Shown here: positions 36,783 through 56,809 of the stretch, piece after piece
How positions within the stretch are numbered: position 1 is the first letter of the stretch
Layout: the number at the start of each line of letters is the position of its first letter
NCBI GenBank assembly: GCA_003665825.1
Contig: QPFY01000019.1
Span: forward strand, 1 to 64,000
DNA length: 64,000 nucleotides
DNA from: Microbotryum silenes-acaulis
Lineage: Eukaryota > Basidiomycota > Microbotryomycetes > Microbotryales > Microbotryaceae
Direction: 5' to 3'
The notes under the pieces: model-generated
The model's input: the letters and a program-made list of their open reading frames with translations, nothing else
Database searches by the model: none
What the model was told of the DNA's origin: nothing
Position numbers and translations under genes: made by a program

Positions 36783-37667
36783 TGTTGAATTTCATTCTAC
36801 TACAAGCGTTCGAACACTTCAACTTTGGGCCGCCGTTTGTCAGGACCGCCCAGTTTTCGGCGCCTCTTTCGCCGCCGCGCGCCTTCGCCTCGGCGCCTTT
36901 GCCCTCGCTGCCAAGCCGCCCCCCAGTCTTTCGCCTCGGCGCCTTCGCCTTCACAGCCAAGCCGCCCCCCTTTTGTTCGCCGCTCCCGCGCCAGCCTGTT
37001 CAACTCACGCTCGCGCGCCGCCGCCTCCACATCGGAACTTAGTCGGTCTACTTCTCCTGTCTTGCCAAGCCGTTGCCTCCGCCTAGCCACCGCCAGCTTG
37101 CCGCCACCGTCCTCATGTCTCATCGGCCATCCAGTGTATCGCCCATGCATGACGCCCGTTGTTCGCAACCTGGATCTTGTTGCTACGGATTGCCCAGCTC
37201 ACCAACACTCGACCAAGGTAGATAAGTTTCCCTTCGTGTACATCGTCCAACACGACACCCCTCAGAGCCTTGATGGTCCGCTTGGAGTTCGGTCTTGTAG
37301 CTTCGCATTGTGCTAGCCCAGTTTGTCTTAGCGCGGCCCCTTGCTAGAACCTCACCCGACTCGCGCGCCCCTGTGCCTTTCTTCCTCTTCTCTACCGCTT
37401 CCCAACATTAGCCAGACAGCTAATCTTCGGTAGAGAACAGGTTAGTTGCAATCATCACACCGCTTCCCAACATTAGCCAGACAGCTAATCTTCGGTAGAG
37501 AACAGATCGTCCAGCCGCACCGCGTCCGTCTCATCAGACCGCGCCAGTGCCGCCTCACGACTTCTCCTGTCGACCGTCCGTCGCATCCTTGCCACGTCGA
37601 CGCTCCACTAGTAGCCCTAGCGGTCGCTACGCCAAATTCCGATAAGCCCTACAGTCCACATTCAACA
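36783..37667 (+). repeat. D1 LTR 1 of array
   Basis: 885 bp, TGTTGAATTTCATTC to CCACATTCAACA. Intron-like insert with GGTTAGTTGCAATC at 37440-37453. The U3 half is made of GC-rich CTTCGCCTCGGCGCC-like repeats. Confidence 0.93.
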
Positions 37668-37678
37668 GGTTATGAGCC
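37668..37678 (+). other. D1 primer binding site containing the Gag start codon
   Basis: GGTTATGAGCC directly after the LTR, the same first 11 bases as family A. The ATG within it (37672-37674) is the first codon of the Gag frame. Confidence 0.75.
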
Positions 37679-38841
37679 TACTTCGACCCGAACTGCCCAG
37701 ATTCCCCCCAGCACCCACGAACCCTGCCGACGACACAGCCTCGGCCGCACCTGCCCACACCGAACCACCCGTACCCGACGAAGCCGACGGCACAATGTCC
37801 AGCCACGTTGACCCCACCCTGGCCGCCAGCATTGACGAGCGCATCCACATGGAAGTCCAACGTCGCCTCCGAGAATTCACCATGTCCCCTAGCCCGGCCC
37901 CAGATCGCAGACCCCACCACAACATCGACATCCCCCGCCACCTTTCAAGCTGGCCGGCCGACGCTCTCCTTTCTGGTGTTGAAACCTTCCGCGTTTGGAA
38001 CCGCACGTTACAAGACCGCGTAGGTACTACGATCTACGCCTACATCACCACTGGACACCTACCCGACCGTGCCGACGACATCGACCGTGAGAATGTCGAA
38101 ATCTTTGCCGTCCGCCAAGTCTCCGATGGCGTCGCAAGTAACGTCCGCAAGTCCCTGCTCACCGTCGCCTCGACGCAACAACGCGCCCAGGCCTACTACG
38201 AACATCTTGACCACGAGTACAACCCTACGTCGGCACAGTCTACCCTTCGTATGCTTCACTCATTCTTCAACATCACCCGTGCCCCCATCGAAGAAAAGGG
38301 CTTCGTCGAATGGATGACCGACTTCCTCGACCACTCAAACTGTCTCGAGTCCGCCAATATTACAATCACCGACGTCATCACCGCCCGAGCACTTACCCTC
38401 ATCCCCGACGAACTAGATGCGTTCCGACAATACATGGAACTGCACAACACGGACAAACTTCCAACACCGGCAAACCTGATGGCCCTCGCACACAAGCAGG
38501 TCAAAAACCATCACGACACTCGAAACGCCGGCTCGAACGTCACCGCATTCGCAGCAACCTCCTCGAACACTCCGTCATCGAACAAACCTAACACTTCATC
38601 CCGATCGTCGCAACTACCACCGGCCCGATACATGTGCCCTGCCTGTAAGATCAGCGTGCACCGCGTCCGTGACTGCCCCGACGACGAAGCACGACAACGT
38701 TACATCGATCGCCGCAACCGACAACCACAACAACCTGTGGATCAGAATACAGACACCCCAGAGGACGCACCCGTTGTAGCATCCATCTCAAGGTTCCAAG
38801 ATTTACCAGACCCCTCAACGCGCCTCGGCCAGAATTGGTAA
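37672..38841 (+). CDS. gag: Gag protein of gag-only element D1, unit 1
   Basis: 389 codons, the only gene of the element. Proline- and acid-rich N-terminus (1-60), a helical capsid region (about 95-280: FRVWNRTLQDRVGT, YAYITTGHLPD, FVEWMTDFLDHSN, ITDVITARALTLIP) that aligns with the Gag of families B and C, and one CCHC zinc knuckle C322-C325-H330-C335 (CPACKISVHRVRDC), then a short tail ending GQNW. The start codon lies inside the primer site, so there is no separate leader. No protease, integrase, RT or RNase H follows: 100 bases after the stop come the purine tract and the next LTR. Likely role: forms the particle; enzymes must come from elsewhere, best candidate family A. Confidence 0.93.
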   Translation: MSLLRPELPRFPPAPTNPADDTASAAPAHTEPPVPDEADGTMSSHVDPTLAASIDERIHMEVQRRLREFTMSPSPAPDRRPHHNIDIPRHLSSWPADALLSGVETFRVWNRTLQDRVGTTIYAYITTGHLPDRADDIDRENVEIFAVRQVSDGVASNVRKSLLTVASTQQRAQAYYEHLDHEYNPTSAQSTLRMLHSFFNITRAPIEEKGFVEWMTDFLDHSNCLESANITITDVITARALTLIPDELDAFRQYMELHNTDKLPTPANLMALAHKQVKNHHDTRNAGSNVTAFAATSSNTPSSNKPNTSSRSSQLPPARYMCPACKISVHRVRDCPDDEARQRYIDRRNRQPQQPVDQNTDTPEDAPVVASISRFQDLPDPSTRLGQNW

Positions 38842-38940
38842 AGTTACCCCTCCGCCCCGCGCCCAGGTCCCCCTACACCGGTCACTACCTCGTCGATTAC
38901 ACTACTTGCCTCAACCTCCCTTCGTGCTCTTATGGAAGCG

Positions 38941-38956
38941 TTCGAACGAGGGGGGG
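38941..38956 (+). other. D1 polypurine tract
   Basis: TTCGAACGAGGGGGGG directly before the LTR. Family A has TTCGAGCGAGGGGGGG at the same place (for example 51032-51047), 15 of 16 identical. Confidence 0.8.
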
Positions 38957-54635: not shown

Positions 54636-54750
54636 CCCCCCCTCGTTCGAACGCTTCCATAAGAGCACGAAGGGAGGTTGAGGCAAGTAGTGTAATCGAC
54701 GAGGTAGTGACCGGTGTAGGGGGACCTGGGCGCGGGGCGGAGGGGTAACT

Positions 54751-55920
54751 TTACCAATTCTGGCCGAGGCGCGTTGAGGGGTCTGGTAAATCTTGGAACC
54801 TTGAGATGGATGCTACAACGGGTGCGTCCTCTGGGGTGTCTGTATTCTGATCCACAGGTTGTTGTGGTTGTCGGTTGCGGCGATCGATGTAACGTTGTCG
54901 TGCTTCGTCGTCGGGGCAGTCACGGACGCGGTGCACGCTGATCTTACAGGCAGGGCACATGTATCGGGCCGGTGGTAGTTGCGACGATCGGGATGAAGTG
55001 TTAGGTTTGTTCGATGACGGAGTGTTCGAGGAGGTTGCTGCGAATGCGGTGACGTTCGAGCCGGCGTTTCGAGTGTCGTGATGGTTTTTGACCTGCTTGT
55101 GTGCGAGGGCCATCAGGTTTGCCGGTGTTGGAAGTTTGTCCGTGTTGTGCAGTTCCATGTATTGTCGGAACGCATCTAGTTCGTCGGGGATGAGGGTAAG
55201 TGCTCGGGCGGTGATGACGTCGGTGATTGTAATATTGGCGGACTCGAGACAGTTTGAGTGGTCGAGGAAGTCGGTCATCCATTCGACGAAGCCCTTTTCT
55301 TCGATGGGGGCACGGGTGATGTTGAAGAATGAGTGAAGCATACGAAGGGTAGACTGTGCCGACGTAGGGTTGTACTCGTGGTCAAGATGTTCGTAGTAGG
55401 CCTGGGCGCGTTGTTGCGTCGAGGCGACGGTGAGCAGGGACTTGCGGACGTTACTTGCGACGCCATCGGAGACTTGGCGGACGGCAAAGATTTCGACATT
55501 CTCACGGTCGATGTCGTCGGCACGGTCGGGTAGGTGTCCAGTGGTGATGTAGGCGTAGATCGTAGTACCTACGCGGTCTTGTAACGTGCGGTTCCAAACG
55601 CGGAAGGTTTCAACACCAGAAAGGAGAGCGTCGGCCGGCCAGCTTGAAAGGTGGCGGGGGATGTCGATGTTGTGGTGGGGTCTGCGATCTGGGGCCGGGC
55701 TAGGGGACATGGTGAATTCTCGGAGGCGACGTTGGACTTCCATGTGGATGCGCTCGTCAATGCTGGCGGCCAGGGTGGGGTCAACGTGGCTGGACATTGT
55801 GCCGTCGGCTTCGTCGGGTACGGGTGGTTCGGTGTGGGCAGGTGCGGCCGAGGCTGTGTCGTCGGCAGGGTTCGTGGGTGCTGGGGGGAATCTGGGCAGT
55901 TCGGGTCGAAGTAGGCTCAT
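54751..55920 (-). CDS. gag: Gag protein of the single D1 element
   Basis: 389 codons, identical to unit 1 of the array as translated (Ser at residue 298). CCHC knuckle C322-C325-H330-C335, capsid region as in the other copies. Start ATG inside the primer site. The frame is intact; no enzyme domain is encoded in the element. Confidence 0.93.
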   Translation of the reverse strand: MSLLRPELPRFPPAPTNPADDTASAAPAHTEPPVPDEADGTMSSHVDPTLAASIDERIHMEVQRRLREFTMSPSPAPDRRPHHNIDIPRHLSSWPADALLSGVETFRVWNRTLQDRVGTTIYAYITTGHLPDRADDIDRENVEIFAVRQVSDGVASNVRKSLLTVASTQQRAQAYYEHLDHEYNPTSAQSTLRMLHSFFNITRAPIEEKGFVEWMTDFLDHSNCLESANITITDVITARALTLIPDELDAFRQYMELHNTDKLPTPANLMALAHKQVKNHHDTRNAGSNVTAFAATSSNTPSSNKPNTSSRSSQLPPARYMCPACKISVHRVRDCPDDEARQRYIDRRNRQPQQPVDQNTDTPEDAPVVASISRFQDLPDPSTRLGQNW

Positions 55921-55924
55921 AACC

Positions 55925-56809
55925 TGTTGAATGTGGACTGTAGGGCTTATCGGAATTTGGCGTAGCGACCGCTAGGGCTACTAGTGGAGCGTCGACGTGG
56001 CAAGGATGCGACGGACGGTCGACAGGAGAAGTCGTGAGGCGGCACTGGCGCGGTCTGATGAGACGGACGCGGTGCGGCTGGACGATCTGTTCTCTACCGA
56101 AGATTAGCTGTCTGGCTAATGTTGGGAAGCGGTGTGATGATTGCAACTAACCTGTTCTCTACCGAAGATTAGCTGTCTGGCTAATGTTGGGAAGCGGTAG
56201 AGAAGAGGAAGAAAGGCACAGGGGCGCGCGAGTCGGGTGAGGTTCTAGCAAGGGGCCGCGCTAAGACAAACTGGGCTAGCACAATGCGAAGCTACAAGAC
56301 CGAACTCCAAGCGGACCATCAAGGCTCTGAGGGGTGTCGTGTTGGACGATGTACACGAAGGGAAACTTATCTACCTTGGTCGAGTGTTGGTGAGCTGGGC
56401 AATCCGTAGCAACAAGATCCAGGTTGCGAACAACGGGCGTCATGCATGGGCGATACACTGGATGGCCGATGAGACATGAGGACGGTGGCGGCAAGCTGGC
56501 GGTGGCTAGGCGGAGGCAACGGCTTGGCAAGACAGGAGAAGTAGACCGACTAAGTTCCGATGTGGAGGCGGCGGCGCGCGAGCGTGAGTTGAACAGGCTG
56601 GCGCGGGAGCGGCGAACAAAAGGGGGGCGGCTTGGCTGTGAAGGCGAAGGCGCCGAGGCGAAAGACTGGGGGGCGGCTTGGCAGCGAGGGCAAAGGCGCC
56701 GAGGCGAAGGCGCGCGGCGGCGAAAGAGGCGCCGAAAACTGGGCGGTCCTGACAAACGGCGGCCCAAAGTTGAAGTGTTCGAACGCTTGTAGTAGAATGA
56801 AATTCAACA
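55925..56809 (-). repeat. D1 5' LTR
   Basis: 885 bp, insert GATTGCAACTAACC at 56139-56152. Confidence 0.93.

Follow-up and report, generated by a model that had tools for sequence, protein, structure and literature searches.

TR-GAG elements of plants are LTR elements that encode Gag only. In Drosophila, the Gag-only non-LTR element HeT-A uses the enzymes of a neighbour, and TART encodes its own Gag. Among copia elements, BARE2 of barley cannot make Gag, its gag being present with the start codon deleted, and its RNA is still packaged; BARE1 has both gag and pol (PMC3735527). The wheat element RLG_Quinta is Gag-only and carries the LTR ends, primer-binding site (PBS) and polypurine tract (PPT) of the enzyme donor RLG_Cereba; both are restricted to one chromosomal niche, and donation of Gag has been proposed (PMC11302176). 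Wilma/Sabrina/WHAM, also of wheat, is described as a cooperative complex with Gag-Pro-only semi-autonomous families and shorter derivatives (PMC9744471).

We compared these systems with a locus of Microbotryum silenes-acaulis. The window, i.e. the whole stretch analysed, comprises positions 1-64,000 of the forward strand of contig QPFY01000019.1 (GCA_003665825.1); genome-wide searches covered the 88 contigs of this assembly, which represents one strain and in which repeats are possibly collapsed. It contains many small contigs rich in repeats.

Anatomy of the D and A elements

D1 elements consist of an LTR, PBS, a 389-aa Gag frame, PPT and a second LTR, each LTR being 885 bp long, starting TGTTGAATT and ending ATTCAACA. 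On the plus strand, 36783-42015 holds a tandem dimer (LTR-gag-LTR-gag-LTR) with TGGAC as target-site duplication (TSD) on both flanks (36778-36782 and 42016-42020). Its 5' LTR (36783-37667), the middle LTR common to both units (38957-39841) and the 3' LTR (41131-42015) are identical. The PBS (37668-37678), 11 nt complementary to spliced tRNA-Met(CAT), contains the start codon of the first gag (37672-38841), behind which lies the PPT region (38933-38956); the second gag (39846-41015) shows 99.7% aa identity to the first. An A copy, recognised by A-like sequence on either side (51047-53750 and 56810-58007), is interrupted by a single D1 copy on the minus strand (53751-56809). The TSD GTCGC (53746-53750 and 56810-56814) flanks this D1 copy, and the protein of its gag (54751-55920, minus strand) is 100% identical. 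D1 Gag has a CCHC knuckle (C322-C325-H330-C335) and is homologous to the Gag of families B and C. AlphaFold modelled D Gag with a mean pLDDT of 54, and Foldseek returned no match at E <= 0.001.

With an LTR pair, PBS, PPT, TSD and an intact frame for Gag only, D1 and D2 have the features of TR-GAG elements; for D2, LTR pairs were found in L024-L026 and one clear TSD in L026. D1 and D2 have an identical gag-only layout although they are separated by a dS of ~1, and the short D3 elements (10 junctions) carry a D LTR without the Gag core.

The Pol frame of A (28945-32370, minus strand) encodes 1141 aa with an N-terminal hydrophobic segment, protease, integrase, RT and RNase H, and leaves no space for Gag. 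Pfam matches comprised Pol_BBD (82-158), rve (271-371), SH3 (431-502) and RVT_2 (667-901), RNase H being assigned by eye and from alignment to B Pol, without a Pfam match; the order PR-IN-RT with RVT_2 is that of Ty1/copia. A profile search of this frame gave no gag-core or knuckle family. The gag with which the frame of copia elements opens is absent from A, where Pol stood directly at 49/49 junctions (32 read in sequence and 17 placed by coordinates). The internal region measures 3478-3483 bp in seven copies, of which ~3426 bp is Pol frame; being nearly all Pol, it excludes the overlooked spliced gag exon that had been raised as a possible refutation. The gag-only D1 and gag-less A of the preliminary description are borne out.

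On the minus strand, a 228-bp 5' LTR (32403-32630, starting TGTTGAATTCC and ending GTTTAACA) is followed by a leader (32371-32402) in which we read the PBS, a four-codon ORF (MSPS and stop) and the Pol ATG. The 308-bp 3' LTR (28615-28922) has one additional 80-nt repeat and otherwise differs from the 5' LTR at a single one of 228 positions. A second Pol frame (25310-28660, plus strand), cut at its C-terminus, stands tail to tail with the first at 99.0% aa identity over 1101 aa. The first 45 codons of A Pol are fast-evolving (dN/dS 0.42-0.61, window-type versus other copies), and under simulated drift the N-terminal segment stayed hydrophobic so often (fractions from 0.04 to 0.69 in four runs) that its retention need not reflect selection. 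As a control, the window contains a full gag-pol B element (18200-23427, minus strand; 1572-aa frame) with 329/329 identical LTR positions, the TSD ATCCT and ends TGTGAGG...GAATA.

Termini, priming and genome-wide census

The preliminary description had A and D1 share an LTR start and an AACA end. Over its first 15 bases the D1 LTR is identical to A at 13, E at 8 and B at 5; the remainder of the A U5 end is variable (TTTAACA, CTTAACA, ATTAACA, CTCAACA, TTCAACA), only AACA being constant among sites collected by a pattern that itself demands AACA. The E-related family H, known here from its LTR start, the preceding tract and Pol (two stretches of sequence read), matches the D1 start at 11/15 bases (counted by eye), little below A, which lowers the weight of the A-D pair and raises that of an E or H helper. 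At its other end, the D1 LTR agrees over the final 10 bases with E at 8 positions and with the window's A copy at 6; A and D terminate in CA, E in GA (three E copies read). Beyond the termini, no D1-A LTR similarity was detected (best local score 23, shuffled maximum 27), and the LTR comparison yielded no packaging-like sequence common to A and D.

All families read use a PBS complementary to half of tRNA-Met, and the core GGTTATGAGCC is identical in A and D, yet not specific to them. The gene for this tRNA-Met(CAT), which we take to be the initiator tRNA, lies on contig C12 (1.15 Mb) and has an 18-nt intron, the match appearing after splicing; a mitochondrial primer (organelle-type tRNA-fMet) was rejected, as the spliced C12 tRNA matches the PBS. 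A and D leaders contain exact tRNA-Met(CAT) runs of 11-34 nt, a half-tRNA (inner part) priming of copia type. The polypurine match between 38941-38956 and 51032-51047 was reproduced exactly at 15 of 16 bases, and the E PPT is likewise identical to that of A at 15/16. Since the PBS is general and the PPT nearly common to E, neither links A specifically to D1, as had been supposed, and the claim that B and C depart from A and D1 at every compared site was too strong: B is primed by the same tRNA at a diverged site, and it too has a G-run. Set against the termini of Cereba/Quinta, A and D have the same, nonspecific PBS core, a U3 start alike at 13/15 and a U5 AACA with variants. With PBS and PPT weak as links, what is left between A and D is the LTR start and location.

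Two further candidates were rejected. The D2 copy L027 shares 33 leader bases with the A copy L047, and copying from the primer explains this better than A/D2 recombination, because the match to the tRNA extends over 34 bases. An ancestral overlap between the D Gag C-terminus and the start of A Pol scored no better than shuffles (D1 345/500, D2 229/500).

Genome-wide, 87 AACA+PBS junctions comprised 49 A, 14 D1, 9 other D-gag, 10 D3 and 5 unrelated sites. Gag and pol together in an element with both A/D ends occurred at none of these, at none of 67 exact PPT+TGTTGAATT sites, and nowhere among the best candidates, the 108 Gag and 41 A-Pol matches listed; the check that had been proposed, with no complete element at the junctions examined, spoke in favour of the split. 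Family F is gag-pol-like with an AACA+PBS end, but its LTR start is another, TGTCGTATG.

Mobility, selection and candidate partners

Paired D1 LTRs showed 0/885 differences in 14/14 copies, with 5-bp target duplications at 10/10 sites, and A LTR pairs differed by 0-1 mismatch (7 measured). D1 and A have therefore both inserted recently, D1 without enzymes of its own, as first noted. D Gag and A Pol are under purifying selection (D1/D2 gag dN/dS 0.15-0.16 at dS ~1; A pol dN/dS 0.05-0.22, 21 pairs). The A copies compared reach a maximum dS of only 0.147, against ~1 for D1 versus D2, so that these data do not establish the present A as the D helper throughout D history. Clusters, taken as the 40 kb on either side of A or B/C elements, hold 31/34 D, 0/17 E and 0/9 G elements; 0/6 H sites lay within 40 kb of listed A or B/C matches (coordinates compared by eye). 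Loss of insertions elsewhere could partly account for the common location of A and D.

Our preferred reading, to which we assign nearly even chances, is that D1/D2 and A each represent one half of a single copia-type system. Free-standing A Pol would provide protease, integrase, RT and RNase H, and D the Gag required in bulk for particles; A integrase would recognise the common TGTTGAATT...AACA ends and insert A and D in the same clusters, the 5' half of tRNA-Met would prime both RNAs, and D3 would depend on both partners. Regarding the split genome of the preliminary description, similar ends and common clusters back the supply of A enzymes to D, and A integrase likely acts on D; we infer, at about even odds, that A RNA and Pol enter particles made of D Gag. 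An autonomous third party may be dispensable. In its strictest form, which we regard as possible though on balance doubtful, this would be an LTR retrotransposon that is obligately bipartite and lacks an autonomous member, its halves inserting separately and held by mutual dependence, with Pol entering particles without Gag fusion, possibly via the N-terminal hydrophobic segment or RNA.

The dependence may instead run one way, A enzymes mobilising D and A borrowing the Gag of the abundant B/C elements in the same clusters, with D Gag serving mainly D. We consider this unlikely, if the most serious alternative. In its favour, B/C account for 85/150 RT matches listed (families called from RT score and frame length), the window's B copy is a full gag-pol element with identical LTRs, and A Pol is closest to B/C Pol (45-51%, with E at 43.5% and F at 32%). 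Against it, B ends differ from those of A and D, and nothing in the sequences was found to connect A RNA with B Gag; these two points do not directly favour D Gag over B Gag.

Parasitism of both A and D on an autonomous element appears rather improbable. Its best candidates are E, outside the window, with a 1395-aa gag-pol frame, TGTTGAGTT...ATTCAAGA ends, the A-like PPT and the same tRNA primer, and H, whose TGTTGAAGT start stands behind a AAGGGGGGG tract and whose Pol is 63-65% identical to that of E. However, E lies outside the clusters at 17/17 sites and H is likewise distant, whereas D lies inside; E terminates in GA, and its two aligned LTR pairs differ at 2/208 and 1/138 positions, against 0/885 in D1. 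Such a helper would also leave it unexplained why A Pol and D Gag are under selection. A D-A split requires an ancestor, and a complete gag-pol element with A/D ends might be absent from an assembly of 88 contigs, many small and repeat-rich with possible collapse, or recently lost in this strain; we hold this improbable, as none of the A or D junctions examined retained an ancestor fragment and D1 and D2, despite their divergence, are both gag-only. That A and D are unconnected remnants with convergent ends is scarcely credible: their LTRs are indeed unrelated past the termini, but the starts agree at 13/15, both are recently mobile and the clusters are common to both.

Comparison with described partner systems

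The preferred two-half reading would set this locus apart from the wheat and barley partner systems compared, in each of which one member is complete. A literature search, mainly of titles and abstract openings, retrieved no retrotransposon pair with both members incomplete. Like Cereba/Quinta, the locus combines a Gag-only element (D), an enzyme donor (A), similar ends and a common niche; unlike it, where Cereba is complete, autonomous and RLG, that is Ty3/gypsy, the donor itself is without Gag, so no partner here has a full protein set. The semi-autonomous Gag families with shorter derivatives recall Wilma/Sabrina/WHAM, in which the helper is a fully autonomous gypsy element and the partners are Gag-Pro, not Gag alone. 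Both A and BARE2 are copia elements that cannot make Gag, but, unlike BARE1/BARE2 as reported, A is without any gag sequence and the presumed donor D is without pol.

Unlike TR-GAG elements, Gag-only D is tied to a Pol lineage without Gag, both through its ends and through where it lies. D resembles HeT-A in being Gag-only and, on the preferred reading, reliant on a neighbour's enzymes; HeT-A and TART, by contrast, are non-LTR elements, and TART has Gag.

With A and D, one can test directly whether helper proteins acting in trans can be maintained by selection; the two also, if the reading is true, raise the question of how a copia Pol without Gag fusion gets into the particle. If neither half is indeed complete in this genome, the locus would show that retroelement genomes, like those of multipartite viruses, can exist in a stably divided state.

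Gag-only D1 and gag-less A

D1, the gag-only LTR element, measures 3,059 bp in total (885-bp LTRs and 1,289 bp of internal sequence), and its coding content is a single 389-aa frame with a CCHC knuckle, whose start codon lies inside the primer binding site (PBS). The window, which is the beginning of contig C19 in a 29.85-Mb genome of 88 contigs, holds a tandem dimer of two D1 units with the middle LTR common to both (36783-42015), and a single unit inserted within an A copy (53751-56809). Tandem dimers occupied 4 of 10 D1 insertion sites (C34, C7, C18 and the C19 dimer), each with a shared middle LTR and one target duplication around the whole dimer. 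Pfam gag and knuckle matches fell under the cut-off; alignment scores of D1 Gag against the Gags of family G (Gag plus protease, 201) and the gag-pol families B (168) and E (96) were not reached by any of 300 shuffles, and the score against the corresponding region of the gag-pol-like F (42) was equalled by 94 of 300.

LTRs of 228-308 bp flank an internal region that measured 3478-3483 bp in seven copies of the copia-type element A (protease, integrase, RT and RNase H). Its 1141-aa Pol frame begins, in the window copy (28945-32370, minus strand), 32 nt past the LTR. There the PBS ATG opens a four-codon ORF (MSPS-stop) ahead of the Pol ATG, an arrangement that may hold Pol down relative to Gag. 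A 4.6-kb inverted duplication at 24000-33680 (arms 99% identical, centre 451 bp) places two A copies tail to tail. Fusion to Gag is the usual route of copia Pol into particles; A Pol is without such a fusion. A N-termini carry a 19-residue stretch with a mean hydropathy of 2.2-2.7 (23 tested, of 49 junctions), above the maxima of the B (1.6), E (1.3) and F (1.9) polyproteins. This segment may act as an anchor for membrane attachment or for assembly, with drift as the alternative.

Genome-wide search for a complete element

Full-length D1 copies in the D1 Gag search (108 matches; best 106 of 340 candidates scored) numbered 14, at 99.7-100%. A second group of D matches stood mostly near 75% (the diverged relative D2), and below these, among the matches listed, came only other families' Gags at 22-27%. 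D frames among those matches were at most 475 aa long, and none was fused to pol. The A Pol search (best 40 of 1250 candidates scored) gave at least 41 matches, and 15 of those listed were full-length and stop-free, with open frames of 1141-1150 aa.

Junctions of an AACA LTR end with the PBS numbered 87 genome-wide: 49 A (32 by sequence, 17 by A Pol match coordinates), 14 D1, 9 other D-gag (mostly D2; those on C20 and C69 damaged, the latter sharing its flanks with the D1 copy on C78), 10 of the short D-LTR element D3 (6 by sequence, 4 by the distance from PBS to polypurine tract, PPT) and 5 unrelated. One of these five is F, whose 1522-aa open frame has room for gag, whose Pol is 31.5% identical to A Pol and whose LTR reads TGTCGTATG...CACAACA. 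Exact PPT+TGTTGAATT sites numbered 67; of six fetched because coordinates left them unexplained, five proved to be A-copy 3' ends, with the sixth (C9:1227558) showing a D-like LTR start and nothing recognised in 1.6 kb upstream. Among 23 one-mismatch PPT sites, those with TGTTGAGTT were taken as E, C1:2374152 was left out of the reading, and six with TGTTGAAGT form family H, whose Pol is 63-65% identical to E Pol (two of six sites read). At both (L097, C1:2442165; L098, C13:342880), an E-related Pol is followed by the PPT and then the LTR start.

D3 (L060, L061, L062, L063 and L085, on C37, C1, C9, C13 and C58) combines D-type LTRs, identical at 992/992 positions in L060 and L061, with about 580 bp of internal sequence and a low-complexity 152-aa frame that is little beyond a Gag N-terminal remnant; it is a putative short passenger of the A/D system. 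G elements (L038, L043, L044, L045) carry only a Gag plus protease frame of 522-580 aa and are dispersed outside clusters; the L045 LTR reads TGTCAGAACC...TCTAAAA.

Shared ends and genomic location

The preliminary description had linked A to D1 through primer site, PPT and both LTR ends. The A/D PBS is complementary to the 5' half of spliced tRNA-Met(CAT), and the same or a diverged site occurs in B, E, F, G and a Ty3-like element (assigned on visual inspection of an RT-like stretch of L045); PPT identity over 16 bases was 15 for A-D, 15 for A-E and 14 for D-E. Neither feature is thus specific to the pair. The LTR start fared better, with A matching D1 at 13 of the first 15 bases, where E matches it at 8 and B at 5, although H follows closely at 11 (by eye). 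At the LTR end, A and D have AACA, three E copies have AAGA or TAGA and B has GAATA, but the last ten bases of D1 are nearer E (8) than the window's A copy (6).

LTRs without a CA end were seen in B (18200-23427, TA) and E (L039, GA), both with 5-bp target duplications. The tRNA-Met(CAT) gene at L095:95-185 (C12:29894-29984) has an 18-nt intron between positions 37 and 38, and the PBS runs across the splice junction. In one D2 copy (L027, C5:1600705), the first 33 internal bases are swapped, in frame, for exact tRNA-Met complement (a 34-base run), apparently the footprint of a primer copied into the element.

At a distance of up to 40 kb from a match of A or B/C (B and C being the gag-pol families of the same clusters; the B/C list comprises 85 of the best 150 RT matches, assigned by score and frame) lay 31/34 D, 0/17 E (three assigned likewise), 0/9 G (five read) and, by comparison of coordinates, 0/6 H. 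The three D exceptions were on contigs that are short or close to the end of one. Measured against B/C only, the counts were 25/34 for D and 33/41 for A. By eye, A, B, C and D seem grouped in one block per large contig (C1:515-660k, C5:1552-1677k, C6:1278-1396k, C7:1484-1597k and similar); these blocks look like candidate centromeres.

Apparent maintenance of the half-states and candidate sources of Gag

D1 LTR pairs were identical in 14/14 copies, with a perfect 5-bp duplication at 10/10 insertion sites. Seven A pairs differed by 0-1 base over the aligned part, the number of 80-nt repeats being variable, the L049 3' LTR not cleanly delimited, and the A copy near 7 kb in the window and L046 having common flanks and representing one duplicated locus; 5-bp duplications were clear in L047, L048 and L050, with none as measured in the other four. 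D1 and three D2 gags gave dS 0.98-1.04 and dN 0.15-0.16, and A Pol gave dN/dS 0.05-0.22 at dS up to 0.147 (21 pairs from seven copies; Nei-Gojobori estimates, rough near dS 1). Given this LTR identity, these target duplications and the dN/dS of D gag and A Pol, both half-states look maintained rather than freshly broken, and the gag-only layout, which D1 and D2 both have, is probably older than their split.

Because only A, among families with ends read, joins these ends with enzymes inside the clusters, the economical reading is that A integrase acts on both A and D ends. A must draw its Gag from another element. The preliminary description had D1 making particles and A the enzymes, and D qualifies as the source in that it shares ends with A and its Gag is under selection; no A or D junction examined carried gag and pol together, and LTR start and location agree with A enzymes serving D. 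PBS and PPT lend it no specificity, and B/C could instead supply the Gag, since B/C Gag occurs in the same places as A.

In the literature searched, mostly titles and abstract beginnings, we met no pair of mutually incomplete partners without a complete member. In wheat, Gag-only or Gag-Pro-only members are described alongside a complete helper (PMC11302176, PMC9744471), and in barley a Gag-defective copia element has a relative that is complete (PMC3735527). In those systems one member is complete, whereas A and D, for which no complete member was found, each lack what the other has.
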